From IMG/VR virus record IMGVR_UViG_3300024259_001518, positions 1-36,270 of that record: a stretch of DNA of 36,270 bases; one strand, given 5' to 3'. The translations under genes were made by a program, and so were the position numbers. The notes below the pieces were generated by a model. It searched no databases, was not told where the DNA came from, and saw nothing but the letters and a program-made list of their open reading frames with translations. Below, in pieces: positions 2,656 to 35,640 of this stretch (positions are counted from its first letter, which is position 1; every line of letters begins with the position of its first letter). The DNA is from a virus.

Positions 2656-3722
2656 ACATTCTTTACATACCTTTGGAATTTCCAAATTGGTACTCTGCAA
2701 AGAAAATGACTTATCCGGTTGGGGTAGGTCTAAGTGAAGGTTTTGGTAAGAATATTGAGGTTACGGTTGTACCAGCATTTTACAATTCCGGTCTGTGGAT
2801 GCAATATTTGCATCAAATTACTATGGGACAAAAGTATGATCAGGTTTGGTTTGAAGTTGTGCATTCTAAAATTCCAATGCAGGTATTGGAATATATAAAA
2901 TCTTTAGCTGAAATTAGGGTAGGATTTGTTATTGAAAGTCTCACTATTCATCCTGATGAGTATAAAAATAATCCAGACGGTACTAATTTAAGAACAGAAA
3001 ATCTCAATGCGAAATTGCCATATATGACGCACGTTGTAGTTGTGGATGAGAGAGATTTAAAAACCTTCAAAATTCCAGTAATGTTTGATATTGCTAGTGT
3101 GCCTGAGAGTATGGTTAATCTTGAAGTGAATGAAAAAGCACTAGAAACTGATAATGTAATTTTTTATGGAACACCTTATGGAGAAAGAGAGCAATGGGTC
3201 AAAGCATTGGGTGATTCTCTTTTGTTAAATCCACAAGGTAATTCAGAAGAAAAGGGTGGAATGCCAGCACAATATGAAACCATCACCTCTGGTGCATTTA
3301 ATAATATGTTCGGAAAAGAGGTTATTCCAGTTGGGTATTACAAAACATTTTGTGATTCTTGGATGGGTATTCGAAAGAAAATGTATCAGAATTGGATGCG
3401 TATACTCTGGAGTATTCAAGGGTATGGGGTCTTAAATCTTCCACATAGAACTAATGTTTTATCAAGCAGGGTGATCGAATCTATGGCTGCGGGTAAAGTT
3501 GTGTTTTCGCCCAGAATGTACAATGGAGCAGATTTCTTGTTTAATAATGGTGAAAATATTATGTATTATGAGTCATTAGAAGAATTAGAGGAGTTGATCT
3601 ATGAGATTGATTATGCGGATAAGTACATGATTGCTAAAAATGCCATCAATACTGTTCTGGAAAATTTCACCACAGAGAAAATGGTTCAACGAATTTTAAA
3701 ATTCGTTAAGGAGAATATTTGA
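2652..3722 (+). CDS. Glycosyltransferase, GT-B fold (GT4/CgeB-like)
   Basis: The start at 2652 is chosen over one 39 nt upstream because GGGGAGGAGG lies directly before it and it gives an ATGA overlap. The 356-residue product has the two-domain look of GT-B enzymes. The N-terminal part begins 'MNILYIPLEFPNWYS'. The C-terminal donor-site part is 'SSRVIESMAAGKVVFSPR' followed by 'GENIMYYESLEELEELI', as in group 1 transferases and CgeB-like proteins. It should transfer a sugar from a nucleotide donor to an unknown acceptor. The sugar-making genes downstream could supply that donor. Confidence 0.82.
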   Translation: MNILYIPLEFPNWYSAKKMTYPVGVGLSEGFGKNIEVTVVPAFYNSGLWMQYLHQITMGQKYDQVWFEVVHSKIPMQVLEYIKSLAEIRVGFVIESLTIHPDEYKNNPDGTNLRTENLNAKLPYMTHVVVVDERDLKTFKIPVMFDIASVPESMVNLEVNEKALETDNVIFYGTPYGEREQWVKALGDSLLLNPQGNSEEKGGMPAQYETITSGAFNNMFGKEVIPVGYYKTFCDSWMGIRKKMYQNWMRILWSIQGYGVLNLPHRTNVLSSRVIESMAAGKVVFSPRMYNGADFLFNNGENIMYYESLEELEELIYEIDYADKYMIAKNAINTVLENFTTEKMVQRILKFVKENI

Positions 3723-4608: not shown

Positions 4609-5360
4609 CATTATTAAATCCATATCCAAATAAAATAAAAAGAGAAATACTGACTACTGCTTACAATGCTGGAGAGGGTCATATAGCATCTTCTCTTTCT
4701 ATTGTGGAATTACTATATGTGCTTTACGATAATGTGTTAAAGGAAGAAGATTATTTTATCTTATCTAAGGGACACGCTTCCCTTGGATGGTATGCTGTTT
4801 TGAACCATTTTGGTTATATTACGGATGAAGATTCAGATTCATTTTGCAAACCAAATGGATTACCAGGACATCCTGATAGACTCAAAACCCCTTGTATTCA
4901 TGCGTCTACTGGTTCTTTAGGACATGGTTTACCCATTGGGGTTGGCATCGCTTTAGGTCTTAAAGCAGCAAATAGAAGTGGGAAAGTTTACGTTCTGATA
5001 GGTGATGGAGAAGCTAATGAAGGAGCTATATGGGAAGCTGCAAATTTAGCTGTATATCATGATCTGGATAATTTATGTTGTATAGTGGATTGTAATGGTT
5101 CTGCTGACAGGGCTTTGACAACTTATATACCAAAAGTGTTTAGTGCCTTTGGTTGGGTTACTAATGAAATAGTGGGACATAACATGTATGATATTAATCA
5201 TGCTATTAATGATACAGCTATTCCACCTAGATTACCTTACTGTGTTGTTGCTATAACGACAAAGGGATATGGGGTTAGTTTCATGGAGAATAACCCTGAG
5301 TGGCACCACAAGACGATGAATGAAGAACAGTATCAGCAGGCTATGAAGGAGTTAGAATAA
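4605..5360 (+). CDS. Transketolase, N-terminal (TPP/PP) subunit
   Basis: The start at 4605 is chosen over 4563 because it has AAGGAG upstream and an ATGA overlap with the methyltransferase stop. The 251-residue product matches the pyrophosphate-binding half of transketolase. It has 'GEGHIASSLSIVELLYVL', 'FILSKGHASLGWYAVL', 'HASTGSLGHGLPIGVGIA' and the TPP/Mg motif 'IGDGEANEGAIWEAA' ending in 'CIVDCNG'. The protein stops where the pyrimidine domain should begin. That domain is supplied by the separate gene at 6457, so the active enzyme would be a two-subunit transketolase moving a two-carbon ketol unit between sugars. Confidence 0.92.
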   Translation: MTLLNPYPNKIKREILTTAYNAGEGHIASSLSIVELLYVLYDNVLKEEDYFILSKGHASLGWYAVLNHFGYITDEDSDSFCKPNGLPGHPDRLKTPCIHASTGSLGHGLPIGVGIALGLKAANRSGKVYVLIGDGEANEGAIWEAANLAVYHDLDNLCCIVDCNGSADRALTTYIPKVFSAFGWVTNEIVGHNMYDINHAINDTAIPPRLPYCVVAITTKGYGVSFMENNPEWHHKTMNEEQYQQAMKELE

Positions 5361-5578
5361 TGGATAATTCTTTTTGGGTAGATGCGGGGGAGGGTGTACA
5401 TTTACGGATAAGAAAGTTTGAAAGATTACCCCCTTTTCCAGAACCAACAGAACTTATTTTAGATTGGGAAGGAATAAAAAGAGGTGGAGAAGAAATTCTT
5501 TTTTCTAAAGAAGAAGTAGAAAAAGTGGTAAAGGAATGTCCTTCTTTATTTGATTTCGTTATAGCTAATTTAATATAA
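5360..5578 (+). CDS. Hypothetical 72-residue protein
   Basis: It starts at the ATG of a TAATG overlap with the transketolase N subunit, which suggests coupled translation. The product opens 'MDNSFWVDAGEGVHLRI', has a Pro-rich turn ('LPPFPEPTELILDWEG') and a charged C-terminal helix ('FSKEEVEKVVKECP'). No domain is recognised. It is the first of five small ORFs that sit between the two transketolase halves. Confidence 0.65.
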   Translation: MDNSFWVDAGEGVHLRIRKFERLPPFPEPTELILDWEGIKRGGEEILFSKEEVEKVVKECPSLFDFVIANLI

Positions 5579-5591
5579 AGGAACTAGAATA

Positions 5592-5774
5592 ATGGCAAAA
5601 TCAAATATCACTGTAGATGTCACTGCTAATTTGTTTTCCCTATGTTCTGTAAAATGTGACAATTTTAGTTGTGTACACAGAAATCAGGACACCCATAATT
5701 GTAATTTGAAGCATATAGAAATAGATGTAGCTGGAAAATGTGAAAATTATAGAACTGCGAATATGATGGCATGA
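5592..5774 (+). CDS. Small Cys-rich, probably metal-binding protein
   Basis: The 60-residue product has five or six Cys in the order 'CSVKCDNFSCVHRN', 'HNCNLKHIEID' and 'GKCENY'. This pattern resembles DUF1540-type mini-proteins, where C-x3-C...C...C binds a metal. The match is by eye. AAAGGAA lies before the ATG. The function is unknown; such proteins are common as small phage accessory genes. Confidence 0.65.
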   Translation: MAKSNITVDVTANLFSLCSVKCDNFSCVHRNQDTHNCNLKHIEIDVAGKCENYRTANMMA

Positions 5775-12225: not shown

Positions 12226-14772
12226 TTATTTCCAATAAAGTTTTGATGGTGGCCTTCTTACGTATCTCGGTTTATTCACCCATTGTAAAAATTGACTTGT
12301 TGAGTCTACCATATCGTCATGTTCAGTAGAAGGGAAATTTGTTATTTGATATTCATAATCAGATAACCAATGGGCTTCTTCTGGAAGAAATACCTTTCCA
12401 GCTTCAAATAAAGTTGTTACTGCGTCAAAGCGTAATATTTTGTTCACATTGTTGGTACTGATGGGGATAATGGGAATTCTAGTTTCCATTTTTATATCTT
12501 GAATTAAAGATTGCCCACTAGCTCTATCTTCAACCAATACCCCTGTGGCTTTGTGAACTTCGTATAGTTGTAAAAATCTTTTTTTAAGTTCTGGAAATTC
12601 CATTCTTTTGTTTATTACATCTAATAGGTAATATCCATTTTCACCTATACCCCACACTGTGGCAGCAGATGGGTCACTTATTTCTGAATCTTTAAATGCC
12701 GTATCCCAACTTATAATGATTCTATTTAGTTTTGGTAAAATTGAATATCTTTTTAACCAGGCATGTTTTACCATACCCCCTTCTCTACTTACTGGATGCT
12801 GTTGGTACTGAGCATTCCATTCGTAAGAACCAATAATTTTTTCTATAGCATTTAAAGATGACTGAGGATAAGCTTCTGGCCATAGAGCATCCCCAACTTC
12901 TCTACCGAGAATATCATTCTCTTCTGCAATAGCTTTGAGATCAAGAATTGTCCAATCTTCTTGTGGATGTTCCTTTAGTACATAACCGCTAAGATCATTT
13001 TCATGCCATCTAGTATTAATCATAATAATTCTATTATCAGGCATCAATCTAGTATAAGCAACTGCTCTGTACCATTCGTGGAGGTCTTTTCGAATTGTTT
13101 GGGATTCTATTTCTTTTCTGGATTTGATAGGATCATCTATAATAAAGCAGTTGTGGGTTAAAATGAGATAGTTATCGTTAGTTATCGTTCTTTTATTGTG
13201 TACTGCATGTGCAAAGAAGTTACTTGTTCCCTCAACTTGGATGTCATAGACTGGGATCGGATCTGTGCTAATTCTTTCAATTTGGGAAATGGTGTCCTCT
13301 TTGATTTGTGATGAATTATATGACAACTGAGACATAGTGTTATTAGATTTTCTGGTGCATTGTTGGTCTTGTCCCCATCTATGTGATGTAGTAAGAGAGT
13401 TTCCCTCTTTGTTTTGTTCCCTGTATTGCCATCTACCGTCGATACTTTCCCCATTTGAATATTGCATACAGCGCATTGATTGTTGTCCCTCTCTAGTATT
13501 AAAGGGCGCATTTTGCGTGATATGATGTTGTATTCTTTCCCATGCCGATAATTGGAATTCTGTGTTCCAAGCATTTTCTGAGAATGTGTTTGATTGGCAC
13601 ATTCTCGGGAGCAATGCTGCGTTAAGTAGCTTAATGGGGAAAATGTTTTCCCACATTGAGGACATATTATTTTTGGCATTTTCCTTCGCTCTCTGGACTC
13701 TTTTCTGCATTTGTTGGAACAGAATTTTCGTATAGGCGTTTCTGTTGTTTTTCCGCAGATTACACATTTTCTTTTGTTTTTTACAGCGTGATGTTTTTGG
13801 GAACATTCTATTGAACAATACATATCTTTGTGCTTTCTTTTTATTGCTGCACGTACTTCGTAATTCTTTTTTACTACTTCTTTTCCGCACCATGCACATG
13901 TTATTTTTGTATCGGCTTTTCGAAGCATATGATAGCAGGATCTGCAATGAAGAGAGCCTATAGTTTTTCTTTTTCCACACTCCGGACATACTTGGGATTT
14001 TCTTGTCTGTAATAATTGTGATGGTGTCTCCCTTTTGTATATCTTTCGTTTTAATGTAACCTTGTCCCTGTATGAAGAATTTGTGCTCTCCAGTTGCTCT
14101 AATGTAATTCCCTGAATTTGTGGTGATTTTGTAGAGTTCATTTGTAATTTCCTTTCTAGCAGCTATTATTTTTTTGTATACTAAAGTGTTACTAGTATGG
14201 TCTAAAGATAATATTTTTATTTCTTTGCTAGATAATAACTCTACGAGGGTAGCAATGTCAACAGTTTTTATTGAAGAATCAATCTTCACATTTAGCATTG
14301 TTTCTGCTGGAAGACAATTTGCTCCACGTCCAGTGGCACCACCACCAACACTGATGTTAAAGTACTCTCCACCCTGAATAGTAGAGAAATGAGACACAGA
14401 TTTTGAATCTGAAGAAATAGCACAACCAGGAAATATTTCTCTATGTAAATCTGAGTCAACTAAATTTCTGACTTTTCGTCCAACATCGTCACCACGTTTC
14501 TGATTGTAAGTTGACCATATAATTTGCCAATCTGGATTTCTACCTATGAACCAGGCAGGAAACATTTCAGATGCTAATAAAGTTTTACCATGCCTAGGGG
14601 GAGAAAAAATTAGTAACCTTCTAATATCTCCTCTCTCTACAGCTTCCAGATACATGGCAATCATTTCATGCATTAACCCAATTTTATATTTTGGGTACAT
14701 TAAACGTGTGAAGCTTAAAAGTTTAGAGTGCGCAAATTGTTCGTTGGAAGGACCTTTTTTAATTGCCATCAT
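12226..14772 (-). CDS. terL: Terminase large subunit containing an intein
   Basis: The 848-residue precursor holds a 459-residue terminase plus a 389-residue intein. The packaging ATPase shows Walker A 'FSPPRHGKT' (residues 56-64), then 'GATGRGAN'. The intein (153-541) follows, then Walker B 'CFIIDDP' with acidic residues at 546-547 and the coupling motif 'MINTRW' near 584. The nuclease domain has D690 ('ISWDTAF'), E748/D749 ('VLVEDRASG') and D819/D820 ('EHDDM'). After splicing the junction reads GRGAN-CFIIDD, an intact TerL. The gene overlaps terS by 14 nt. Two ATGs in tandem (14772, 14769) could both serve. The frame is continuous through the overlapping HNH gene at 13182-14141. Confidence 0.93.
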   Translation of the reverse strand: MMAIKKGPSNEQFAHSKLLSFTRLMYPKYKIGLMHEMIAMYLEAVERGDIRRLLIFSPPRHGKTLLASEMFPAWFIGRNPDWQIIWSTYNQKRGDDVGRKVRNLVDSDLHREIFPGCAISSDSKSVSHFSTIQGGEYFNISVGGGATGRGANCLPAETMLNVKIDSSIKTVDIATLVELLSSKEIKILSLDHTSNTLVYKKIIAARKEITNELYKITTNSGNYIRATGEHKFFIQGQGYIKTKDIQKGDTITIITDKKIPSMSGVWKKKNYRLSSLQILLSYASKSRYKNNMCMVRKRSSKKELRSTCSNKKKAQRYVLFNRMFPKTSRCKKQKKMCNLRKNNRNAYTKILFQQMQKRVQRAKENAKNNMSSMWENIFPIKLLNAALLPRMCQSNTFSENAWNTEFQLSAWERIQHHITQNAPFNTREGQQSMRCMQYSNGESIDGRWQYREQNKEGNSLTTSHRWGQDQQCTRKSNNTMSQLSYNSSQIKEDTISQIERISTDPIPVYDIQVEGTSNFFAHAVHNKRTITNDNYLILTHNCFIIDDPIKSRKEIESQTIRKDLHEWYRAVAYTRLMPDNRIIMINTRWHENDLSGYVLKEHPQEDWTILDLKAIAEENDILGREVGDALWPEAYPQSSLNAIEKIIGSYEWNAQYQQHPVSREGGMVKHAWLKRYSILPKLNRIIISWDTAFKDSEISDPSAATVWGIGENGYYLLDVINKRMEFPELKKRFLQLYEVHKATGVLVEDRASGQSLIQDIKMETRIPIIPISTNNVNKILRFDAVTTLFEAGKVFLPEEAHWLSDYEYQITNFPSTEHDDMVDSTSQFLQWVNKPRYVRRPPSKLYWK
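13170..13189. repeat. 10-bp tandem duplication at the HNH stop codon
   Basis: Two perfect copies of AGTTATCGTT lie head to tail (plus strand). They cover the HNH stop codon (13182-13184) and encode the intein link 'RTITNDN' between blocks F and G. Ten is not a multiple of three. With a single copy the TerL frame would run into a TAA before the block G His-Asn, so the duplication is required for the present TerL frame. Confidence 0.9.
13182..14141 (-). CDS. Zinc-finger HNH homing endonuclease, overlapping gene
   Basis: This 319-residue protein is encoded in the +1 frame entirely inside the intein. It has four Cys-pair zinc modules: C52/C55-C66/C69, C82/C85-C109/C113, C126/C129-C141/C145 and C160/C163-C177/C181. 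The HNH nuclease follows, with C223/C226, 'LLLHHIDGDKTNN' (H252/H253), N265 and 'CLSCHIIHH' (C270/C273, H277/H278). AAAGGA at 14150-14155 lies 8 nt before its ATG, so independent translation is plausible. The first 50 residues and last 25 are encoded by the same bases as intein blocks B and F and look less protein-like. The family cuts intein-free target alleles and spreads the element. Its target is presumably the empty terL site. Confidence 0.92.
   Translation of the reverse strand: MNSTKSPQIQGITLEQLESTNSSYRDKVTLKRKIYKRETPSQLLQTRKSQVCPECGKRKTIGSLHCRSCYHMLRKADTKITCAWCGKEVVKKNYEVRAAIKRKHKDMYCSIECSQKHHAVKNKRKCVICGKTTETPIRKFCSNKCRKESRERRKMPKIICPQCGKTFSPLSYLTQHCSRECANQTHSQKMLGTQNSNYRHGKEYNIISRKMRPLILERDNNQCAVCNIQMGKVSTVDGNTGNKTKRETLLLHHIDGDKTNNAPENLITLCLSCHIIHHKSKRTPFPKLKELAQIRSQSMTSKLREQVTSLHMQYTIKER
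14149..14155 (-). promoter_or_regulatory. Ribosome binding site of the overlapping HNH gene
   Basis: On the minus strand AAAGGAA is followed 8 nt later by ATG at 14141. The same bases encode 'RKE' of the intein. It is as good as the sites of other genes here and is the main sign that the endonuclease is made as a free protein rather than as part of the TerL precursor. Confidence 0.7.
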
Positions 14773-24579: not shown

Positions 24580-27500
24580 ATGTCTAATGTAGATGGAATA
24601 AATATACCAGTAACTTCTTCTGGAGTTGGGAAAACCATATCTGATTTGGAAAGAATAAAACTCCAAATGAAGAATATGACGACCTCCCTTGAGCAAGTTA
24701 AAAAAATGTTGATGGTAGCTTTTCCAGTTGATAGTGCTAAACAATTTTCCACTGCTGCTAAGAGTGTGCAAAGAGAAGTACAGCAAATTAGTCATTTTTT
24801 AGAAAATATGGGAACAAAGGCTAATACAACACTTTTGAAAGCTTCCACAGCCGTTGGGATTTATGAAAAGAAGTTAACTACTGTTAATAAGACTTTAGAA
24901 AAAAATGTAACTGTACAAAAAAATACTGCGGCGGCGGTTAAACTTCTTTTTGCTAGAATACATGCGGGAGTAGTTGTTAATAAAAAATTAGAAACTTCTA
25001 CTAATAAAGTAACTTCTGCATTTCTTAAACAGATAGGGGTATCTGCAAGATTAACAAATAAATGGGATGCTTTTCGTAAATCTATTAGTGCAAATAGATT
25101 AGTGCAACAAGCATTGAATAAAACGAGTACTGCTGCGGTTTTAAACAATATGAAGTTAACTTCTTCCTATCAAAATTTATCAAAAAGTATTGCCAAGAAT
25201 ACCTCAGTTACTAAAGCAAATAAAACAGAACAAGCCAAATTAAATACTACTATCGCTAAAACGAGTAAAGGTTTTGCTGGTTTAATTCCCCATGTTGCTG
25301 CGGTTACTCTTTCCTATATGGCTATGCGTAGAGTTACTAGAGCCATTACAGGTACTATAGGTCTAGGTGTAGAATTTGAACATGAAATGTCTATGGTTAG
25401 GGCTATTACTGAGGCGACCACTGCACAATTTGAGGTTTTAATGGATGTGGTGAAAAAGGCTGGAGAGACTACAGTTTTTACAGCTAAAGAAGCCGCTGAA
25501 GCTATGAGATTTTTAGCTATGGCTGGTTTTGCAGTAGATGAATCTATTGCGGCTCTTCCTGATGTTTTAAATCTTGCCTTTATTGGGCAATTAGAATTGA
25601 AACGTGCCACTGATATTTCTACTGATGTTCTCAGAGCATTTGGATTAGAAGCAGAACAGCTAGGAATGGTTGTAGATGTGTTTACTGCTACAATTACTAA
25701 TAGTAATACCAATATTGAAATGCTTGGACAGTCAATGAAATTTGTTGCTCCTGTCGCTTCTAAATTAGGTTACAGTGTACAACAAGTTTCAGCTATGCTT
25801 GGGGTCATGTCTCAATCTGGTATCAAAGCTGGTATGGCTGGTAGGTCTTTACGAATGGCTATGATGCGCATGAGTGATGCTGCTAAGTCTATGGGTATGG
25901 AAGGAGCTAACTTATTAGATGTTTTAAGAAAACTTGCTAGTAAGAGTTATTCTCCAGATAGATTAGTTGGAGAACTCAAAACAATGTTTGGGCTTCGTTC
26001 TACTCCTGCTATTCTAGCTCTTATGCAAAATCTTAAACTTTATGATGAATTTTATGAAAAATTAGAAAATTCTGAAGGAGCTGCTAAAAAGTTTACAGAT
26101 TCTTTAAAAACTGTGTGGCGTGCTTTTAAAGAATTGTCCTCAGTAGTACAGAGTTTAGCCATTGAAGTATTTGAAGAATATCAAGAAACACTGGAAAGTG
26201 TACTTAATAATGCTACTGAATGGTTTAGGGAAAATAAAGATGAAGTAAAAGAATGGACAAAATATATTGTTGAAAGTATACCACAGGTAATTGGGTTAAC
26301 TGTGGCTATGTGGGGTCTTGGCAAAGCTTTAGCTATAGTTACAATTTTTAGAGAAATGCATGTAGCAGTTACGGCTATGAATGCTGCTAATGCTCTTCCT
26401 ATGTTTGCAGATCAAGTGACACGTGGCGGTAAAGCATTAGCTATGGCAAAAGGATTTGCAGCAAAATATGCTTCTCAATTGTATCTGTTAGGTGGAGCTA
26501 TTGCTGCTGTAATAGCTTATAAACTATCTGAATGGTTGGCTGAACAATGGGAATGGTGGGATAAGAATATATGGGGGTCAAAAAAGTATACGGAAAGTTT
26601 AAAGGAAGGTATAAAGCAACAACGAGCATTTTTAGCACTAAAAACATTAGATAAATCTCCTGAACAGGCATTTGAAGTTTTCAATTTAAAAACAGCTAAA
26701 GTGGCATTAAATTATCTTAAAACTGAATTATCTGATCTTAGAGAAAAAAGAGATACTATTTTAGATAATATTCAACAACAGGAATATCAACTTGATTTAA
26801 TTGATACTGATAAAGAAAAAGTGGCTTTAAAAAATGTAGAAGCTCAGATTTTAGTAATGGCAGAAAAAGCTGCGAAAGTACAATATTTAGTGGATAATAT
26901 GAGAAGTTCGGGAGGAACGTATGAAAATAGCGACTATTATAAAGGTAGTGCTTTGGCTGCTACGAGAGAAAGAGAAAAATTAGAGGAGCAAACTAAGTAT
27001 AATGAGGCTTTACGAATAGCAAAAGAACAGTATGAAAGTGGGGAAATTAAATTACCTTCTTATGATAGGAAGAAATTTTTAGATAAATTAGAAGAGGATC
27101 TTAAAACAGAAGGTGCGTATTTATTGCTTGCCGCCAGAGATAAAGAAGGAGCTAAAGAATATATTAGAGGAATGCGTACTAATGCTGGAAGAGTATATGA
27201 TGCTAGAATGAAACAAGATGAGGAAATAGCTTCTAAATTAAAACAAATTAAAGATCCTATGGAAAGAAGTAAAATAGAAGCTAATGTATTTACTCTAGGT
27301 ACAGAATTTACTGACCGTATGAGTAAGGTTAAAAAGTATTCTGAAGAATACATGCTTTTGTTTAATAATATGCGTAAAGGGCAATCTAAAATATTAAACA
27401 AAAGTATTAGTGATCAAATTAAAGCTGAGAATGCATTAGTCACCGCAGTCAAAAAAGCGCAAGGTTCCATTATTGATAATAAAGCTGCTATGCAAAAACA

Positions 27501-30500
27501 GGAGACTGATCTTAATACCAAACAATTGAATGATTCTTTGGCTGTTATTAAAACTGATACAGCTAATCAAATAGCGGAAGCTATAAAAAGAGGCGATTCC
27601 ATAGTTGATTTAAAGGAACAGCAGCAAATATTAATTACAAATAATCAACGAGATTTTGAGTTATCTTTAGCGCAATCACGGGAAGCAGAAATAACTAAGG
27701 AAGCAGAAAAACATGATATAATAATAAAAAATTCAAAGGCTTCTGGGGATCAACTTAAAATATTAGAGGAAGATAAAAAATCTAGTATAGACCTTATTGA
27801 TAAAAAATTTGATAGGATAAGACAAGAAAGAGCATCTTCTATTGTTAAATTTTATGAACAACAAACAATTAAAGAGGAGAATATTGCACAGAATCGGGCT
27901 GATAAAATTTCAGCTATAAATGAAAAAATTACTATTAAAACAGTAGAGACTGTTAGAGATACGGAATTAAAAAGACTTTCCATTTTGGCTGACGCAGAGG
28001 AACAAGAAATAGCAATATACGAAAAGTCTGCTTTAACTAAAATAAAATATGCTTTGAAAAATAATGAGGATATAAGTCAATTAAGAAAAGAATCTATTGC
28101 GGAAGTAGAAGAACAAAATGTTGCATTGCAAAAAATATGGGAAACGTCTAGAGAGACAGAAATACAAGCAGAAGAACGAATTTGGGCTTTAAAGAGAAAA
28201 TCTGGAACTAGTGATCTAGAATATAATGCAGGATTACGATCTGCTAAATTGGAAATAGACGAAAATTATAATGAAAAAGTTAGAGCTTTAGAATTGAAAA
28301 AACTTAAATTTATTCAATCTATTAATGCTGCTGAGTTAGCCGATCATCAAAGGAAATATCAAAAAGCATTAACTTATTATGATAAATGGGTAAAACAAAT
28401 AGCTAAAAAAGCTTTGCAGGGCCTTTCTAAAGACCAAGCTATGGCTACCACTATGAAAAAAGCTAAAGAGACATGGGCAGAACATGTTAGAAATCTTTTT
28501 AATGTTGGAAGGAATGATGAAGCTAGAGATTTAATGAGTAAATGGCCCGAAATTCAAAGAATCCAATTAGAGGAATTAAGTAAACAACAAGATCAATATG
28601 ATAATGATAGACTTGTAGCAATGAAGTCCCTTTATAAAGATTTGAATGAAGTCTCTGGCAATTACTTTGACGCACAGATACAGATTATTGAACTTGAAAA
28701 AGAGAAGTATATTGAATCTCTTAAAATAAAAGCGGATGAAAATGGAAAATATACACAAAAACAAATGCAATTACTTGAGGCACTGAATAGATGGCAAATC
28801 CTTAAAAATCGTGAATTAGTACAAGAATACCTCATAGCTAACAAGGGTTTAGCTGGTGGTATGGTTGCATACCTTGTTGAAATGAAAACAGCATGGGAAA
28901 ATTACTACCAAGAGATAGGCCAATTTGGTTATGATTTTCTGGAAAGTTTCGGTAGTGCATTTGAGGATAGCTTTGTTAAAGTATTTACTGAAGGAGTAGA
29001 TGCAGCAAAAGATGTTTGGAAGGATTGGCTTGACGATTTGTTAGATAGTTTCCTTAAAATGATAGCGAGACTTATAAAAGAATTGGTCATGTCAGGCATA
29101 TTAGAATTGCTAGTATCCGCTCTTGGAAGTGGAAGCGGAAGTAGAAGTATCAGTATCAGTGGTGGAGGAAGTGGAAGTGGCGTTGGAATGGGAGGCGTGA
29201 GTGTAGGTGGTTCTTCAATGAGTTGGACAACCATTGGTAGTATGCTTGCCAAGGGATATGAGTTGTACACCGGGAAGAGCTTATCTCTTAATGGTTTGAT
29301 AGATAGTCTTTCTGGTAGTTCTTCCTCAACTGCTGTTACTACCACTCAACAAGGTCAAAATTGGGCGGGTGATATTGGTAGTTGGGGAAAAGATTATGCA
29401 AAAGGTTTAGGCCAGACAGGAACAATGACTGCTGCTCAAGTTGCAGGCGCTGAAGCTGCCTATGCAATGAATACTGGTTACATGAGTGGTATGGCAGTTG
29501 ATTCAGCCGGTATGGTTGGCAACATGGCGAACATGGGTGCAAACGCTTCCACTACTGGAATGGGTGCTGGTGCTGCTTCTGGTATTGCTGCTGCTGTTGT
29601 TGCTATTATCATTGGTGGTTACATGGTTTTCGATAATAATACGAAACCAGATGCCAGCGTTTGGGTAAAAGCTCAAGCGGAAATGTCAAAATTACAATCA
29701 CATTTATTCGATGTTGCTATAACTGGAGTTGGTGCAATTGGGTATTCTGAATCAGATGCAAATAAAGATGTAAACTGGATGTCTAGCGTGTTGGCTGATC
29801 ATTTTAGTATGTATGAGGAGATATATAAGAATGTATCTTATGAGAGTCAACGAAAAATCAAAAAGGGACTAGAAAATATACCTTGGGAAGAATTATCGTT
29901 TACTCTTATCAAGATGGCCCAGGATCACGTTACACCTAAATTATCTATAAGCAGAAAAAATCCCTATTGGGTAAGGCCACCTGATGCTAATCCAATATTC
30001 GATGATCTTAATCCTACCTCTTATAGTGGAAGTTTATCTGGTACAGGTAGGGGTAATGCAGCGACACAATTACATGCTTTAATGGGGAAATACTTTGAGG
30101 AGTATGTTGAAGAGGCACTAGTCAATATTAAGAAAAAAGATGTTTACAAATTAATGAATGATAATATTCTCGGGATGTTATCTGGATTAGATAAGGATCT
30201 TTTCATGAATGATCCTGAGGAATTTTTTCATGCATTTAATGAATCAATGAAGCAAATGGTGAAAGCGGAAGTTGTATGGACAGACTTTAACCATTGGTTA
30301 GACGGTACAACTGCTGGAATGACTAAAGCTCAAGAAGCAACGACATTAGCTACTGCTGAACTAGAAGGTTATGCAGCGCAGATGGAAGCTTTGGGTGTCA
30401 CTTTGAGTGAGGCTGAACTAGCTGCAAAATTTAAAGACATATATAATGGAATGACAGAGGGTATAGGTAATCTTGGTGCAATAGCGAAACCAGTAACAGG

Positions 30501-33500
30501 ACTTGATAAATATCTTGCTAAAATCAATGGTCAATTTGATGCCTACTTGGCACTATTGGAACGCTATGGTGTTGATTTAGATAAAATTACTGATCTAGAA
30601 GAGAAACGCAAAAAGAAGCTGGAAGAAGCCGCTGAAGAATATATGGAATCTTTTTGGAAAGGAATCGAAGATACCATAAAAGGTGCGGAAGGATTGGTTA
30701 CAGCATTTGAGGAAGCTGTTATAAGTATTAATAACACCTTTGCTGGAGTGTACGCCACTATGGCGGAAGATAAAGGCCTTGATGCACGAAAAATAGAAGA
30801 TATTCATAAATATTATAATGATGCAAAAAAAGCAATACAAGATGAAATAGACAAAATCATGGATGGTTTGGCTGACAGTATTAAAGAAGTTGCAGAGTTA
30901 ATTAATATTTTGGAAACTGGTGGAGATATAAGTGCTGTTATAACATATTTTGAAGAGTTGTTTAAAACCTTTGACGAAAGTGGTGCAGACCTTACTGGAA
31001 TTATTTCAGATATGAAAAATTCCTTTAAGTCTGTTATAAATGAATTAAAGAATCAGGCCAATCAATTATATGCATGGTCCCAAGAATTTGGTGGGTTCAA
31101 TTTTGAGAGGGCCGCTAATCAAGCTAGTAAATTAATGACACTTCTTTCAGATTTCGTTAGAGATATGTCCGATATGGATTCTGCCGATATGAAAGTTGCG
31201 TTAGGGGAAATTAAAACTAGCATACAAGAGTACAGAGAAGCCGTTGAAAGGGCACAGTTTGGAGAACAAGATTATGAAATAGTAGATTACCTTAATGATG
31301 TTTTAGATTACTTAGATGGACTAGAAACCGTTATTAACACATTTACTCTCGATTTGGAATCGTTATCACAAGTTCCCATGAAAGATTTATTTCCCAGTAT
31401 TACAGAGGATTTAAATGCATTTGTTGGTGGGTTGAAAAATTGGTATAATAAACTTGAGGATGCAAATGGTGTTTTTGATGGCCTTCAGGAAATGACCAAT
31501 GCACTGTCTAATCAAATAACAGCATGGGTGGATAGTTTATCAAATGAGGATATTTCGAATGAAGATGTATTGAGTGGTCTTGCTGCAATATCAGATTCAA
31601 TAGATGATACGATTACGGCTGTTCAAGATATGCGTAGAAAACAATCTAATGCTGGAAATACTGAATGGGTTTACGTTCTTGATTCTTATATTACATATTT
31701 AAAATCATTGAAAACTGCTGTTGAGTCTTTTGAGGATCGATTATCAGATGCTAATTTGAGTGAAGCTAATAGACAAGAAATAAGTGATATTTTAACAGAT
31801 TTAGGTAAAGGTGATTATACCTCTGCTATTGCTTATTTGCAAAAGCAACTGGATGAACTTATAGCTGGTGGAGGAGATTCAGAAACAATCCAAAAGTATA
31901 AAGATGATATTGCCGAACTTCAAAGATTACAGGATGAGTTTATAGCAATAGAAAGACGACAGCTAGATGCGATCAAGAGAAGTCTGGGATTAATTACTGA
32001 TTATGAATACAGAATGGGGAGATTGACTGAACTTCAAGATCGGTACGGTAATTCTTTAGGTTCACTTGTCAAAAATTTTGAGAGTTGGACCCTTGAAGAA
32101 TTGAAAGCAGAGGCCGACAGGTTGGGTATTACATGGCAGGAGATGGCTGAAGATGTTGCATTTCTTGTTCAACAGGAACAGAACCTTTACGATATTAGAA
32201 AGGCTCAAGCTGAATTGGCTGGTAAAGACACTGGACTGTGGGAAATTGCAGAAAGGTACAATCTTGATTACGATAAAATGGATAAAGATTTTGCACAGAA
32301 AATTGTGAATCAATTTTTATCCATGACAGCAGAAGAAGTGCAAGCGTGGGCAGATAATCTGAGCGTTTCCGTAACACAATTAGTTGCAGATATTATGACA
32401 TTGGCCAATGCATTTGATTTGACTGCCGATGCAATAGAAAGTTTGGCAGACGATATTAGAGAAAATCTTGAAAATCTAAGATTACAAATTCAAGATGATA
32501 TGGGTATTGGTGGTGGTCATGCAGCAAGAGCGGCTTCTATATGGAATCAGATAGAAGGATTAGGTGAAACAGACCCTATGACGGAAGGTGTTCTTCTTGA
32601 AATGACTGAACTCTTAGGTGATTGGTATTCAGAAGGAAAAGCTGCTGAAGATGAAAGAATTGCTGGAATTAGGGAAGAACTAAATGAACGTAAAAGTGTC
32701 TTAGAAGAAGAACTACGTTTAGCGCAAAATTTTCAAAATGTTGTGGAATCTTTGGAAGATTTGATTAAGTCGATAAAATATAGCACCTTGAATGTTTCTT
32801 TACCATATGAGAAGGCAGAAGAAGCACAACAAGATTATGATACTTTACTTGCTGCTGCTATGACAGGCGATTTAGAAGCAATGCAAGAATACAGTGGTTT
32901 TGTGCAAACTCATTTGCAGCAACAACAGGAGGAGTTTAAATCTTCAGATATATATCAAGGTATCTACGATAGTGTAATGGCTGACATTGAAGCTGTAAAG
33001 GCCAATGCTGAAGCTCAGTCTTATGATGAGGCTATACTGGCAGAACTGGAGAGCATTGACGCACAACTTGAAAATTTAGAACCTGACTATTCAGCATTGT
33101 TAGCTCAGTTTGAAGGTATGGCAGAAACAATAGAAACAGCATTAAGAAGGCTTGAAGCTGGAAGTCTTGTTATAACTTTTGAATGGGATACTGCTGGAAG
33201 TGCTGAAGCTATTGAAGCATTGAAACAAATTCTAGAATTTTATGGGTGGGAAGATGATGTAATGATCAGTTTTGTTGCCACCATGCTAGAAAATTTTGGT
33301 GGTACTTTTGCTGAAAGAATGGAACTTCTTGGTTTTCTTGTAGATCCAGCCAATGGTGGAAGCTGGACTTCAACTGCAACCATTATGATGTTGGCATCTG
33401 ATGAATTTTGGGATGAAAATACGTGGACTGATAATCTAGAATTGATTGGATTTATTTTTGATGAGAATGGAAAAGATTGGAATGCGGAAGCGGTTTTAAC

Positions 33501-35640
33501 CTTTCTGGCTAATGAAGGAGCTTGGGATTCAAGTACTTTTGAAGAAGCTATGACAGGATTAAGATTTTTAAGAACTAATGCTGAAGGTGGTTGGAACTCT
33601 GACGCTGTTATTACTTGGATTAACAATGATGGAGTATGGAATTCTGCAACACCTACTGAATTAATGAGTGCCCTTAATTTTGTATTAGGGGAATCTGGTT
33701 GGGATTCAAAAGCATCTTGGGCATTTCTAGCACAATTATCTGATGAAGGCATTCCGTGGTCCCAATTGAAACAAACATTTATTGACTACGGTGCTGATGT
33801 AGAAACAATTGAAAAATATCTCAAAATCACATACTTGAATGATAGTAATTTAACCTTTGCAACTTGGGATGATTTTTATGATGCTTGGGTTGCAATGGGG
33901 ATGTCTGATTCTTGGGCTACTAAATATCTACAAGCTGTATATGAAGATAGTGGCGAAGAGGGTTTAAAGTATTGGACTGATTTCATCATTGCTTTTGAAA
34001 TGGGTGATATTGATGATGCTACGGCTGAAAAAGTACTTGCGGCTGTTTATAATGCAACTGCTGGTCAACCTGATCTTGCTTTATGGTCTGATTTTAAAAC
34101 AGCAATGGCAGATGCGAATGTAGGAGAAGATTCAACAGCATGGAAAACAATTGAAGCAGCATATAATGATAGTTCAGGAGCATTTCCAACATGGAGTGCT
34201 TTAGAAACTGCAATGACAGATGCAGGCATAGCTACTTCAACCATGAAAGAAATTCAAGGTAGATATGATAGTGGAGATATGACATGGAGTGAACTTGAAG
34301 ATATGTTGGCGGCAACAGGCACTCCAGAGTCAGTAATCCGTGATATTAGATCATCGGTTGTTGGAACGGTTGAAGTTGAATTAACTGAGATGGCTGTGTG
34401 GCAAACACAAACAGCGTTATTGCTTGGTATTTTCAATAATACAATGTTGACAGCAAAATCGTTAGGTGATTACCAAAGTCCTGGTAATATGATGGGCTCT
34501 TGGAGTTTTGATACTTCTTCATGGTCAAGTACTTTTGCTGGTGCTGGTGGTTTGTGGGATTATACAGCAGGAGACGGCTCTGGAGGTGGAGGTGGTGTTG
34601 CTCCTGAATTTCAGAAAGTTTATTTGTATGGTGGTAACGGAGCAAGGATTGATGGCAATGCTGAAGGATTAATCAGAACTGAGACTTTTCCGACCAATTC
34701 TTGGGCTGTTGAAATAGTCAATCAAGGAAATCACATAGAGACTTCACGAAATTATCTTGCAAATATTTCTGCACAGCAAAGTGCTTATATGGTTTATTTG
34801 CTGCACATTTACAATAGATTACATGATCTCAGAGTTGGTGGTACAGTGGCTACAACTGGTGGTAGTTCCAGCGATCCAACTATGATAGCATGGCTGAAAA
34901 ATATATATAACATACAGACAAACACACGTGATTGGTTGACAAATTTGTATAACAGACAGTATGATACACGTGTTAAGCTGTATGGTGGTAACGGAGCAAG
35001 GATTGATGGCACTTCTAATGGCTTGATACGAGGAGAAATGTTCCCCACTGCTACTTGGGCGAATGAAATAGTGGATCAGGGGAATAATATAGAGACTTCA
35101 CGAAATTATCTTTCGAACATATCGGGGTATGCTGGTTATTTGTTGCACATATATAATAGATTGCATGATCTCAGAATTGGTGGCACAGTATCAACTACTG
35201 GTGGTAGCAAAAGTGTTTACGTTACTGGAGGGTATTTAAGTTCTGCTGGTTCAGTATGGCACACAAATAATTACACAAACACTGTTACGGCAGTCAGAGG
35301 CGTTGGTGGTTATAAAGAAGGTGGTATTTCTACTGGATCAGAATCTGGACATATGGAATTATTACATGGTACTGAAGCAGTCATTCCAATGAAAAATATG
35401 TCTATACCAGTGCAATTTTTAAATGGTGGTTCTACGCAAGATGGTGCGAAAAGTGAGGAAGAACTTCAATTACTCAGAGAGCAGAACGAACTTTTGAAAG
35501 AGATAGCTTCAAATAAGGAAAGATCAATTGAGCTTGATGGGAAAGTGTTGGGTAGCTATGTAGATGCCAGGGCTGATAATGTTCGTGTAACAGCTAATAG
35601 AACTAAGGGTAATGAAACCAGGAGACTATACAGAGTATAA
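24580..35640 (+). CDS. Giant tail tape measure protein (TP901 type)
   Basis: The 3686-residue protein starts behind AGGTGG. The TP901 core lies at about residues 263-430 ('VEFEHEMSMVRAITEATT', 'FTAKEAAEAMRFLAMAGFA', 'SQSGIKAGMAGRSLRMAM'). Hydrophobic, possibly membrane-crossing segments lie near 635-652 and 1665-1687 ('GIAAAVVAIIIGGYMVF'). Long charged coiled coils fill about 700-1450, and a Gly/Ser linker is near 1520-1550. Trp-phased helical repeats occupy 2890-3255 and a duplicated module lies at 3347-3545. At about 0.15 nm per residue it predicts a tail of roughly 550 nm. No peptidase or lysozyme motif was seen. The stop overlaps the next gene (TAATG). Confidence 0.93.
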   Translation: MSNVDGINIPVTSSGVGKTISDLERIKLQMKNMTTSLEQVKKMLMVAFPVDSAKQFSTAAKSVQREVQQISHFLENMGTKANTTLLKASTAVGIYEKKLTTVNKTLEKNVTVQKNTAAAVKLLFARIHAGVVVNKKLETSTNKVTSAFLKQIGVSARLTNKWDAFRKSISANRLVQQALNKTSTAAVLNNMKLTSSYQNLSKSIAKNTSVTKANKTEQAKLNTTIAKTSKGFAGLIPHVAAVTLSYMAMRRVTRAITGTIGLGVEFEHEMSMVRAITEATTAQFEVLMDVVKKAGETTVFTAKEAAEAMRFLAMAGFAVDESIAALPDVLNLAFIGQLELKRATDISTDVLRAFGLEAEQLGMVVDVFTATITNSNTNIEMLGQSMKFVAPVASKLGYSVQQVSAMLGVMSQSGIKAGMAGRSLRMAMMRMSDAAKSMGMEGANLLDVLRKLASKSYSPDRLVGELKTMFGLRSTPAILALMQNLKLYDEFYEKLENSEGAAKKFTDSLKTVWRAFKELSSVVQSLAIEVFEEYQETLESVLNNATEWFRENKDEVKEWTKYIVESIPQVIGLTVAMWGLGKALAIVTIFREMHVAVTAMNAANALPMFADQVTRGGKALAMAKGFAAKYASQLYLLGGAIAAVIAYKLSEWLAEQWEWWDKNIWGSKKYTESLKEGIKQQRAFLALKTLDKSPEQAFEVFNLKTAKVALNYLKTELSDLREKRDTILDNIQQQEYQLDLIDTDKEKVALKNVEAQILVMAEKAAKVQYLVDNMRSSGGTYENSDYYKGSALAATREREKLEEQTKYNEALRIAKEQYESGEIKLPSYDRKKFLDKLEEDLKTEGAYLLLAARDKEGAKEYIRGMRTNAGRVYDARMKQDEEIASKLKQIKDPMERSKIEANVFTLGTEFTDRMSKVKKYSEEYMLLFNNMRKGQSKILNKSISDQIKAENALVTAVKKAQGSIIDNKAAMQKQETDLNTKQLNDSLAVIKTDTANQIAEAIKRGDSIVDLKEQQQILITNNQRDFELSLAQSREAEITKEAEKHDIIIKNSKASGDQLKILEEDKKSSIDLIDKKFDRIRQERASSIVKFYEQQTIKEENIAQNRADKISAINEKITIKTVETVRDTELKRLSILADAEEQEIAIYEKSALTKIKYALKNNEDISQLRKESIAEVEEQNVALQKIWETSRETEIQAEERIWALKRKSGTSDLEYNAGLRSAKLEIDENYNEKVRALELKKLKFIQSINAAELADHQRKYQKALTYYDKWVKQIAKKALQGLSKDQAMATTMKKAKETWAEHVRNLFNVGRNDEARDLMSKWPEIQRIQLEELSKQQDQYDNDRLVAMKSLYKDLNEVSGNYFDAQIQIIELEKEKYIESLKIKADENGKYTQKQMQLLEALNRWQILKNRELVQEYLIANKGLAGGMVAYLVEMKTAWENYYQEIGQFGYDFLESFGSAFEDSFVKVFTEGVDAAKDVWKDWLDDLLDSFLKMIARLIKELVMSGILELLVSALGSGSGSRSISISGGGSGSGVGMGGVSVGGSSMSWTTIGSMLAKGYELYTGKSLSLNGLIDSLSGSSSSTAVTTTQQGQNWAGDIGSWGKDYAKGLGQTGTMTAAQVAGAEAAYAMNTGYMSGMAVDSAGMVGNMANMGANASTTGMGAGAASGIAAAVVAIIIGGYMVFDNNTKPDASVWVKAQAEMSKLQSHLFDVAITGVGAIGYSESDANKDVNWMSSVLADHFSMYEEIYKNVSYESQRKIKKGLENIPWEELSFTLIKMAQDHVTPKLSISRKNPYWVRPPDANPIFDDLNPTSYSGSLSGTGRGNAATQLHALMGKYFEEYVEEALVNIKKKDVYKLMNDNILGMLSGLDKDLFMNDPEEFFHAFNESMKQMVKAEVVWTDFNHWLDGTTAGMTKAQEATTLATAELEGYAAQMEALGVTLSEAELAAKFKDIYNGMTEGIGNLGAIAKPVTGLDKYLAKINGQFDAYLALLERYGVDLDKITDLEEKRKKKLEEAAEEYMESFWKGIEDTIKGAEGLVTAFEEAVISINNTFAGVYATMAEDKGLDARKIEDIHKYYNDAKKAIQDEIDKIMDGLADSIKEVAELINILETGGDISAVITYFEELFKTFDESGADLTGIISDMKNSFKSVINELKNQANQLYAWSQEFGGFNFERAANQASKLMTLLSDFVRDMSDMDSADMKVALGEIKTSIQEYREAVERAQFGEQDYEIVDYLNDVLDYLDGLETVINTFTLDLESLSQVPMKDLFPSITEDLNAFVGGLKNWYNKLEDANGVFDGLQEMTNALSNQITAWVDSLSNEDISNEDVLSGLAAISDSIDDTITAVQDMRRKQSNAGNTEWVYVLDSYITYLKSLKTAVESFEDRLSDANLSEANRQEISDILTDLGKGDYTSAIAYLQKQLDELIAGGGDSETIQKYKDDIAELQRLQDEFIAIERRQLDAIKRSLGLITDYEYRMGRLTELQDRYGNSLGSLVKNFESWTLEELKAEADRLGITWQEMAEDVAFLVQQEQNLYDIRKAQAELAGKDTGLWEIAERYNLDYDKMDKDFAQKIVNQFLSMTAEEVQAWADNLSVSVTQLVADIMTLANAFDLTADAIESLADDIRENLENLRLQIQDDMGIGGGHAARAASIWNQIEGLGETDPMTEGVLLEMTELLGDWYSEGKAAEDERIAGIREELNERKSVLEEELRLAQNFQNVVESLEDLIKSIKYSTLNVSLPYEKAEEAQQDYDTLLAAAMTGDLEAMQEYSGFVQTHLQQQQEEFKSSDIYQGIYDSVMADIEAVKANAEAQSYDEAILAELESIDAQLENLEPDYSALLAQFEGMAETIETALRRLEAGSLVITFEWDTAGSAEAIEALKQILEFYGWEDDVMISFVATMLENFGGTFAERMELLGFLVDPANGGSWTSTATIMMLASDEFWDENTWTDNLELIGFIFDENGKDWNAEAVLTFLANEGAWDSSTFEEAMTGLRFLRTNAEGGWNSDAVITWINNDGVWNSATPTELMSALNFVLGESGWDSKASWAFLAQLSDEGIPWSQLKQTFIDYGADVETIEKYLKITYLNDSNLTFATWDDFYDAWVAMGMSDSWATKYLQAVYEDSGEEGLKYWTDFIIAFEMGDIDDATAEKVLAAVYNATAGQPDLALWSDFKTAMADANVGEDSTAWKTIEAAYNDSSGAFPTWSALETAMTDAGIATSTMKEIQGRYDSGDMTWSELEDMLAATGTPESVIRDIRSSVVGTVEVELTEMAVWQTQTALLLGIFNNTMLTAKSLGDYQSPGNMMGSWSFDTSSWSSTFAGAGGLWDYTAGDGSGGGGGVAPEFQKVYLYGGNGARIDGNAEGLIRTETFPTNSWAVEIVNQGNHIETSRNYLANISAQQSAYMVYLLHIYNRLHDLRVGGTVATTGGSSSDPTMIAWLKNIYNIQTNTRDWLTNLYNRQYDTRVKLYGGNGARIDGTSNGLIRGEMFPTATWANEIVDQGNNIETSRNYLSNISGYAGYLLHIYNRLHDLRIGGTVSTTGGSKSVYVTGGYLSSAGSVWHTNNYTNTVTAVRGVGGYKEGGISTGSESGHMELLHGTEAVIPMKNMSIPVQFLNGGSTQDGAKSEEELQLLREQNELLKEIASNKERSIELDGKVLGSYVDARADNVRVTANRTKGNETRRLYRV
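33247..34350 (+). repeat. Trp-phased helical repeats inside the tape measure
   Basis: Two related sets of degenerate repeats occur. Set 1 (33247 on) has units of 33-39 residues beginning 'WEDDVMISFVA', 'WTSTATIMMLA', 'WNAEAVLTFLA', 'WNSDAVITWIN' and 'WDSKASWAFLA'. Set 2 (33757 on) has units of 31-37 residues beginning 'WSQLKQTFIDYG', 'WDDFYDAWVAMG', 'WTDFIIAFEMGD', 'WSDFKTAMADAN', 'WSALETAMTDAG' and 'WSELEDMLAATG'. Set 2 begins inside the last unit of set 1. Confidence 0.8.
34618..35205 (+). repeat. Duplicated module near the tape measure C-terminus
   Basis: Copy 1 (34618-34860) and copy 2 (34972-35205) are spaced 354 nt. Both encode 'LYGGNGARIDG', 'GLIR.E.FPT..WA.EIV', 'IETSRNYL.NIS' and 'YLLHIYNRLHDLR.GGTV'. 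The DNA is identical over TATGGTGGTAACGGAGCAAG and its following bases, which suggests a recent duplication or gene conversion. Confidence 0.85.

Follow-up and report, generated by a model that had tools for sequence, protein, structure and literature searches.

We analysed a window of 36,270 bases, the whole of the virus record IMGVR_UViG_3300024259_001518, in which the gene of the terminase large subunit (terL, protein TerL) contains an intein whose DNA also encodes an HNH nuclease in another reading frame. Comparison with related loci makes it very probable that this is a mobile, protein-splicing TerL intein whose homing nuclease is a separate +1 gene within the intein's own DNA. The two-frame arrangement occurs in dozens of diverse phages and is real, not a sequencing error. 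Both frames proved to be as a first-pass annotation of the window had described them, with an open TerL frame and a 319-residue HNH open reading frame (ORF) at +1. The locus is organised as follows:

12226..14772, minus strand: TerL precursor ORF with the intein, 848 residues, a single open frame with 0 internal stops.
14317..14772, minus strand: TerL N-extein, whose C-terminal end (..TGRGAN) directly precedes the stretch that we take to be the Walker B motif.
13150..14316, minus strand: intein, Cys1 at 14316 to Asn389 at 13150; the next residue is Cys+1.
14002..14316, minus strand: Hint N-terminal half (HintN), with an AlphaFold predicted local distance difference test score (pLDDT) of 93-97 per ten-residue block.
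13312..13992, minus strand: TerL-frame linker, lacking a confident fold; its bases also encode the nuclease.
13150..13305, minus strand: Hint C-terminal half (HintC), which carries a 13-residue extra segment after the FFA motif and before the terminal THN.
12226..13149, minus strand: TerL C-extein, from CFIIDDP.. to the stop.
13182..14141, minus strand: HNH nuclease ORF in the +1 frame, 319 residues, ATG start.
32 nt short of the intein end, minus strand: TAA stop of the nuclease.
13212..13991, minus strand: part of the nuclease that AlphaFold predicts to be structured (zinc knuckles and HNH).
13308..13388, minus strand: HNH motif region (H252 H253 .. N265 .. C270 .. H274 .. H278).

Each frame was identified by its own profile matches. 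Pfam placed Intein_splicing (1.4e-17) and Terminase_6C (2.3e-14) in one and the same TerL frame, where intein_Nterm/Cterm and terminase domains were also recognised by NCBIfam/Pfam. The nuclease frame matched phrog_1271, an HNH endonuclease family of PHROGs (E 1e-31). The same DNA is present in three further IMG/VR records (99.965-100% identity), which carry three metagenome ids and possibly represent non-independent samples.

The openness of the TerL frame is not a matter of chance. In our null model, the HNH protein and its codon counts were kept fixed, synonymous codons were permuted, and stops in the TerL frame were counted. For the window, 13.75 TerL-frame stops were expected over 250 codons and 0 were observed, and 0 of 20,000 permutations were stop-free, bearing out the earlier claim that a second stop-free frame of this length exceeds chance; the third frame contained 20 stops. 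Over the 41 loci with the same arrangement (described below), the pooled count was 0 TerL-frame stops against 361.1 expected, while the third frame had 427 against 371.8 expected. The probability of finding no stop was below 0.05 in 39 of the 41 loci. Eight ordinary, non-overlapping ORFs used for calibration behaved as the model predicts (83 stops vs 79.4 expected; 158 vs 158.9 expected). Chance openness of the TerL frame was rejected on these counts.

Homologous loci revealed the same relation between the frames. A tblastn search with the HNH-frame sequence against 50,697 phage records matched 9 records, and in three of these the HNH lies inside terL. These represent two phages, Gordonia phage Clown (two records) and Synechococcus phage S-EIVl; both have an open TerL frame with the HNH at +1, and the records that were opened annotate a single terminase gene. 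Further loci were obtained from IMG/VR scans with the HNH sequence or HNH alignments as query; an IMG/VR scan with TerL as query returned only copies of the window, and a scan of genome contigs only a distant HNH, in Paenibacillus. The resulting set holds 87 sequences (86 loci and the window), of which 75 have HNH, HintN and HintC; these 75 comprise 42 loci distinct at 90% identity. Most of the 12 lacking this triple showed weak or distant HNH or zinc-finger matches (L006, L011, L016-L019, L069-L073); the remaining one, L010, is a second copy of the window's stretch, with no match on the strand scanned.

The HNH lies at +1, with the TerL frame stop-free from HintN to HintC, in 74 of the 75 loci and in 41 of the 42 distinct ones, whose G+C content spans 0.36-0.70. 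HintN and HintC likewise share a single ORF in all but one of the 42. In that sole exception, L007, the intein is split and the HNH is a different one (PF13392); at L007:2600-3556, an IntN ORF, an HNH_3 ORF and an IntC ORF follow one another in three different frames, and this too is a TerL intein. No in-frame HNH version of the intein was found among the 42 distinct loci and in the homologue scans made; since the loci were collected by nuclease similarity, in-frame homologues would have been equally findable. Both frames were open throughout apart from one HNH frame (L030), so the comparison with homologues that the first-pass annotation had called for came out on the side of the two-frame reading. 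The host gene is terL, as phrog_38 (terminase large subunit) was matched by 9 of the 9 most diverse precursor ORFs tested; a Pfam terminase model matched only 3 of 10 diverse precursors, and it was PHROGs that decided the host gene. The splice-site Cys lies 0-6 residues ahead of the Walker B DD in all 41 loci. At L022:2175-4184, the TerL frame stops about 100 codons past the intein, which may reflect a break or a further insertion in the C-extein.

The two frames are under different kinds of selection. We compared substitutions pairwise, in ten-codon bins, among ten S-EIVl-type inteins (337 codons each, gap-free). TerL-frame position 3 was the most variable in all four bins of codons 1-40 and in all three bins of codons 311-337. 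Between them, TerL-frame position 1, which is HNH position 3, was the most variable in 26 of 27 bins. Therefore, selection at the protein level acts on the HNH frame over a stretch that starts near codon 41, still inside HintN, and runs to around codon 310. Along the intein, these substitutions show selection acting first on the TerL frame, then on the HNH frame and then on the TerL frame again. Among six diverse loci, all 15 pairs also had a higher identity in the HNH frame than in the TerL frame of the same DNA. In the TerL-frame linker of the 41 loci, hydropathy was lower than expected in 40 of 41 under plain synonymous permutation, an effect that vanished with a stop-free null (mean z -0.01), leaving no constraint on hydropathy beyond stop avoidance. 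Protein-level constraint on the linker, as judged by hydropathy, was thus rejected, and the low hydropathy is a by-product of stop avoidance. Both overlapping same-strand frames are selected, the TerL frame for the absence of stops and the HNH frame for its protein. The central claim of the first-pass annotation, that the nuclease sits out of frame inside the intein while the TerL frame is held open, is upheld by 41 distinct loci, by the stop counts and by this substitution pattern.

The splicing part has the catalytic residues and the fold of a class 1 (Hint) intein. All 40 aligned inteins share Cys1, the block B Thr and His, the terminal Asn and Cys+1 (C11, T85, H88, N399 and C400, in a numbering that starts 10 residues before Cys1), and Asn-Cys forms the splice junction in each of the 41 loci. 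The Hint fold of the window intein gave 48 PDB matches at E <= 0.001, by title all inteins, intein nucleases or intein-like domains. AlphaFold modelled the Hint C-terminal half with a pLDDT of 88-96, falling to 71 at the extra segment, and the part overlapped by the nuclease (model residues 119-345) with values of 40-76 per ten-residue block, most below 60.

In the nuclease model, by comparison, ten-residue blocks reach 86-98, mostly over 88, for approximately residues 51-310, except for 63 and 74 at 191-210. The first 49 or so residues, which overlap the Hint N-terminal half, are of low confidence. Seventeen nuclease columns are invariant in 40 of 40 aligned sequences, including H252, H253, N265, C270, H274, H278 and zinc-type Cys residues. 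These conserved residues and the phrog_1271 match identify an HNH motif and zinc ligands. The nuclease stop lies within the intein in 23 of the 41 loci and at most 43 nt past its end in the other 18.

Evidence of mobility comes from locus L014. Its C-extein was used for a scan, and in the best 80 of at least 600 matches (89-94% identity), all 80 TerL relatives had an insert of 0 nt, that is, an exact empty site, pointing to precise insertion into a conserved site of an intact host gene. The +1 position is Val in all 80 intein-free relatives and Cys in the intein-bearing L014 and S-EIVl. Empty sites with Val next to inserts with Cys+1 are the pattern expected of a splicing intein that arrived recently.

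Based on these findings, we propose the following cycle. The TerL mRNA would be translated straight through, with the two Hint halves folding around a meaningless and probably unstructured linker, and the intein, linker included, would then be excised by means of Cys1, Asn389 and Cys+1, releasing TerL; this step is well supported by the features above. A second ribosome would initiate within the intein, at the ATG at 14141 behind AAGGA, and produce the zinc-finger HNH nuclease. As the presence and absence of inteins among relatives suggest, the nuclease would cut terL genes that lack the intein, at their Walker B codons, and repair would copy the intein in, carrying Cys+1 along. One stretch of DNA would thereby be under dual selection, for the nuclease as a protein and, as far as detected in the overlap, for the TerL frame only as an absence of stops. 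It is plausible that this design uncouples the dose of nuclease from the dose of TerL.

Internal initiation is the route to the nuclease that we favour from the signals found in the DNA. The elements concerned in the window, together with a repeat that involves the nuclease stop, are:

14150..14154, minus strand: AAGGA, a Shine-Dalgarno-like sequence 8 nt upstream of the nuclease ATG.
14232..14261, minus strand: promoter-like site in the intein, upstream of the nuclease start (TTGACA-18-TATTAT, 11/12), which is weak evidence.
13170..13189, minus strand: tandem duplication of 10 bp, within the extra segment close to the C-terminus of the intein, containing the nuclease stop codon.

Across the 41 loci, Shine-Dalgarno-like signals of -5 kcal/mol or better precede 19.6% of 286 nuclease-frame starts and 11.6% of 292 other-frame starts. 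A promoter scan yielded a total of 7 sites against 5.5 +- 2.1 expected, which is not above chance.

Several observations weigh against this interpretation. The excess of Shine-Dalgarno signals is modest, the nuclease start sites differ from locus to locus, and expression, splicing and cutting are predictions for the window's copy. The penultimate His is absent from 10 of 41 inteins, the junction reading His-Asn-Cys in 31, and the window intein has 13 extra residues (within 13150-13210, FFA to THN) compared with five other aligned inteins. On the nuclease side, Pfam HNH models stay under their cut-offs, so that its identity as an HNH enzyme depends on PHROGs and the conserved residues; its model has a predicted template modelling score (pTM) of 0.49, and a Foldseek search of the PDB gave 0 matches at E <= 0.001. 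The G+C-rich loci L033 and L034 have an open TerL frame that is unsurprising under the null model (P0 0.515 and 0.149). For the window's TerL, no close relative free of the intein turned up, others being at 27-36% identity, and the identity matrices of nuclease and Hint correlate weakly (rho 0.20, vs 0.19 with the exteins), so that co-travel of the two parts is not shown and is not used here. Finally, L030 carries a single stop in its nuclease frame (about position 3115, in the first zinc knuckle) with the TerL frame intact, possibly a case of the decay expected for homing nucleases.

The varying start sites would also suit programmed ribosomal frameshifting, in which a +1 shift from the TerL/Hint frame produces a HintN-HNH fusion, perhaps shifting back afterwards. 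In the S-EIVl group, moreover, constraint on the nuclease frame begins near intein codon 41, with a TTG and no clear Shine-Dalgarno sequence. However, a double shift as the sole route needs no stop-free TerL frame, and 0 stops were found where 361 were expected. The window's ATG at 14141 has a good Shine-Dalgarno sequence (AAGGA), and in L035 and L066 the nuclease frame has a stop late in HintN, after which comes an ATG with a Shine-Dalgarno-like sequence. We therefore consider frameshifting improbable.

A dying passenger, in which the HNH frame is unused and nothing but the need for an essential TerL keeps the TerL frame open, would account for the stop in L030, where the TerL frame remains intact as in the decay phase of a homing cycle. 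Nevertheless, HNH third positions are the most variable in 26 of the 27 bins of the ten related inteins, the 17 invariant columns hold throughout the alignment, and the window's copy is intact, making an unused nuclease frame very improbable.

The geometry, with a +1 change near the HNH start and a -1 change near its end, is compatible with two compensating sequencing or assembly errors disguising an ordinary in-frame HNH intein, an explanation that we regard as next to impossible. Three more contigs carry the same DNA, 40 other distinct loci, among them the isolated phages Clown and S-EIVl, have the nuclease at +1, and such errors cannot produce a depletion of TerL-frame stops; homologues with the same +1 relation refute this reading. 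The nuclease likewise lies at +1 in all 41 unsplit loci, so the element is not one of the inteins that carry their homing endonuclease as an in-frame domain. That it is a group I intron, or another element acting at the RNA level with the HNH as an internal ORF, has a negligible probability: phage introns often carry free HNH ORFs, but this insert is open in the TerL frame, contains Hint blocks, and brings the Cys+1 required for protein splicing to sites that are Val when empty. The intron and in-frame-domain readings were both rejected on the Hint blocks in the open TerL frame and the +1 position of the HNH.

Two origins had been offered for the out-of-frame nuclease. Insertion of a free-standing nuclease gene appears to fit better than two compensating frameshifts, because distant free-standing relatives exist (25-36% identity, including haloviruses), no in-frame relative was found, and three nuclease families share the same design. 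In the haloviruses, these relatives are annotated as separate HNH genes and do not lie within an intein; phrog_1271 is the family of the window nuclease.

The other two families came from second inteins in two of the TerL loci, each with a nuclease ORF at +2. Intein 2 of L025 (about 4701-5657) contains an HNH_3 and zinc-finger ORF (PF13392, 3.7e-13), and intein 2 of L063 (about 2846-3646) an endonuclease VII ORF (PF02945, 1.1e-15). The three nuclease types are different families of one wide HNH/endonuclease VII fold group. A tblastn search with the L025 ORF returned 20 phage records, 4 of them under a terminase feature (TJE1 twice), and in all three phages examined (Highwayman, TJE1 and Rhodobacteraceae phage LS06-2018-MD07), the HNH_3 ORF is at +2 and TerL is unbroken. 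With the L063 ORF, 722 records matched, and 36 of the 60 listed fall under a terminase feature, some being duplicate records of one phage. The six examined (Chandler, Phlyer, Angelicage, phi1_186018, AlanGrant and Vivi2; L194-L199) all have an unbroken TerL with endonuclease VII at +2; the nuclease ORF lies within annotated terminase genes and has no annotation of its own. In total, the +2 position holds in 4 of 4 HNH_3 loci and 7 of 7 endonuclease VII loci examined. All nine phage precursors and L063 matched Pfam Intein_splicing, those of TJE1 and the Rhodobacteraceae phage below the cut-off.

Ten +2 loci were counted for stops, including L025 and leaving aside intein 2 of L063. Together they have 0 TerL-frame stops against 15.1 expected; this depletion rests on the pooled number, because singly only 2 of 10 pass 0.05 and Chandler and Phlyer are near-identical. 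Out-of-frame nucleases are probably a general and repeatedly invented architecture of phage inteins, in which nucleases of different families were dropped in and the intein frame continued as a meaningless linker.

Split inteins and fractured genes, reportedly described by Dassa in 2009, have a free-standing nuclease gene between the intein halves. There, too, the nuclease is its own gene; the window intein, in contrast, is one unbroken ORF, and it is L007 that resembles the split form.

In-frame nucleases are known from the same host gene. According to PMC5050341, the TerL inteins of BAKA and Bethlehem contain an in-frame LAGLIDADG homing endonuclease domain. They resemble the window intein in host, in Hint domain and in the position of the nuclease between Hint blocks B and F, but their nuclease is a fused LAGLIDADG domain whereas that of the window is of HNH type and in a separate frame. 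The same source lists the Chandler gp6 intein (TerL6-f) as one of five that spliced in a reporter. Like the window intein, TerL6-f is a TerL intein with an out-of-frame nuclease; it differs in nuclease family (endonuclease VII), in frame (+2) and in insertion site.

The first-pass annotation had stated that intein nucleases are normally in-frame domains. This needs qualifying, as an out-of-frame HNH is already published for an insertion lacking Hint, the ShiLan element in a mycobacteriophage methylase (Arsenault, Gosselin, Gogarten 2025, PMC11855218). The ShiLan element and the TerL inteins have in common an insert open in the host-gene frame, an HNH with zinc fingers out of frame, and a patchy distribution. 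ShiLan is reported to have no splicing domain and predicted to stay in the methylase, whereas the TerL inteins have a complete Hint domain, catalytic residues and Cys+1; its HNH is in the "third" frame, and the phrog_1271-type HNH of the TerL inteins is at +1. A further ShiLan-like case is reported for phage Applejack (genome announcement, PMC12613952), and the accessible text of an earlier methylase paper (PMC9957025) does not mention the HNH.

For overlapping frames, PMC11855218 cites preprint 10.1101/2025.01.02.630785 (Actinobacteriophage inteins .. Non-Canonical Architecture) and Gorbalenya 1998 (Non-canonical inteins). By its title and this citation, the preprint may have similar content. 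Among the papers listed by our literature searches, none describes an out-of-frame nuclease in a Hint-bearing intein, and a search on S-EIVl listed nothing on its intein. The arrangement is thus kin to the published ShiLan element and apparently undescribed with Hint, with priority unsettled in view of that preprint.

If this interpretation is correct, the overlap of approximately 210-270 codons would be an unusually clean case of dual coding, with a conserved enzyme in one frame and the second frame open only to be excised. It suggests that an intein can carry a nuclease without being fused to it, and it may account for the spread of inteins with no visible in-frame nuclease. If the architecture is as general as proposed, many phage inteins regarded as "nuclease-less" would be active homing elements overlooked by annotation. 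In the records examined for Clown, S-EIVl, Chandler and Phlyer, the nuclease is not annotated inside the terminase gene. A stop in the linker would leave a split intein and a free nuclease, of which L007 may be an example, offering a route from whole to split inteins. Clown, S-EIVl, Chandler and Phlyer are well-studied isolates and would be amenable to tests in laboratory hosts.

Elsewhere in the window, on the plus strand at 24580-35640, there is one ORF of 3686 residues.

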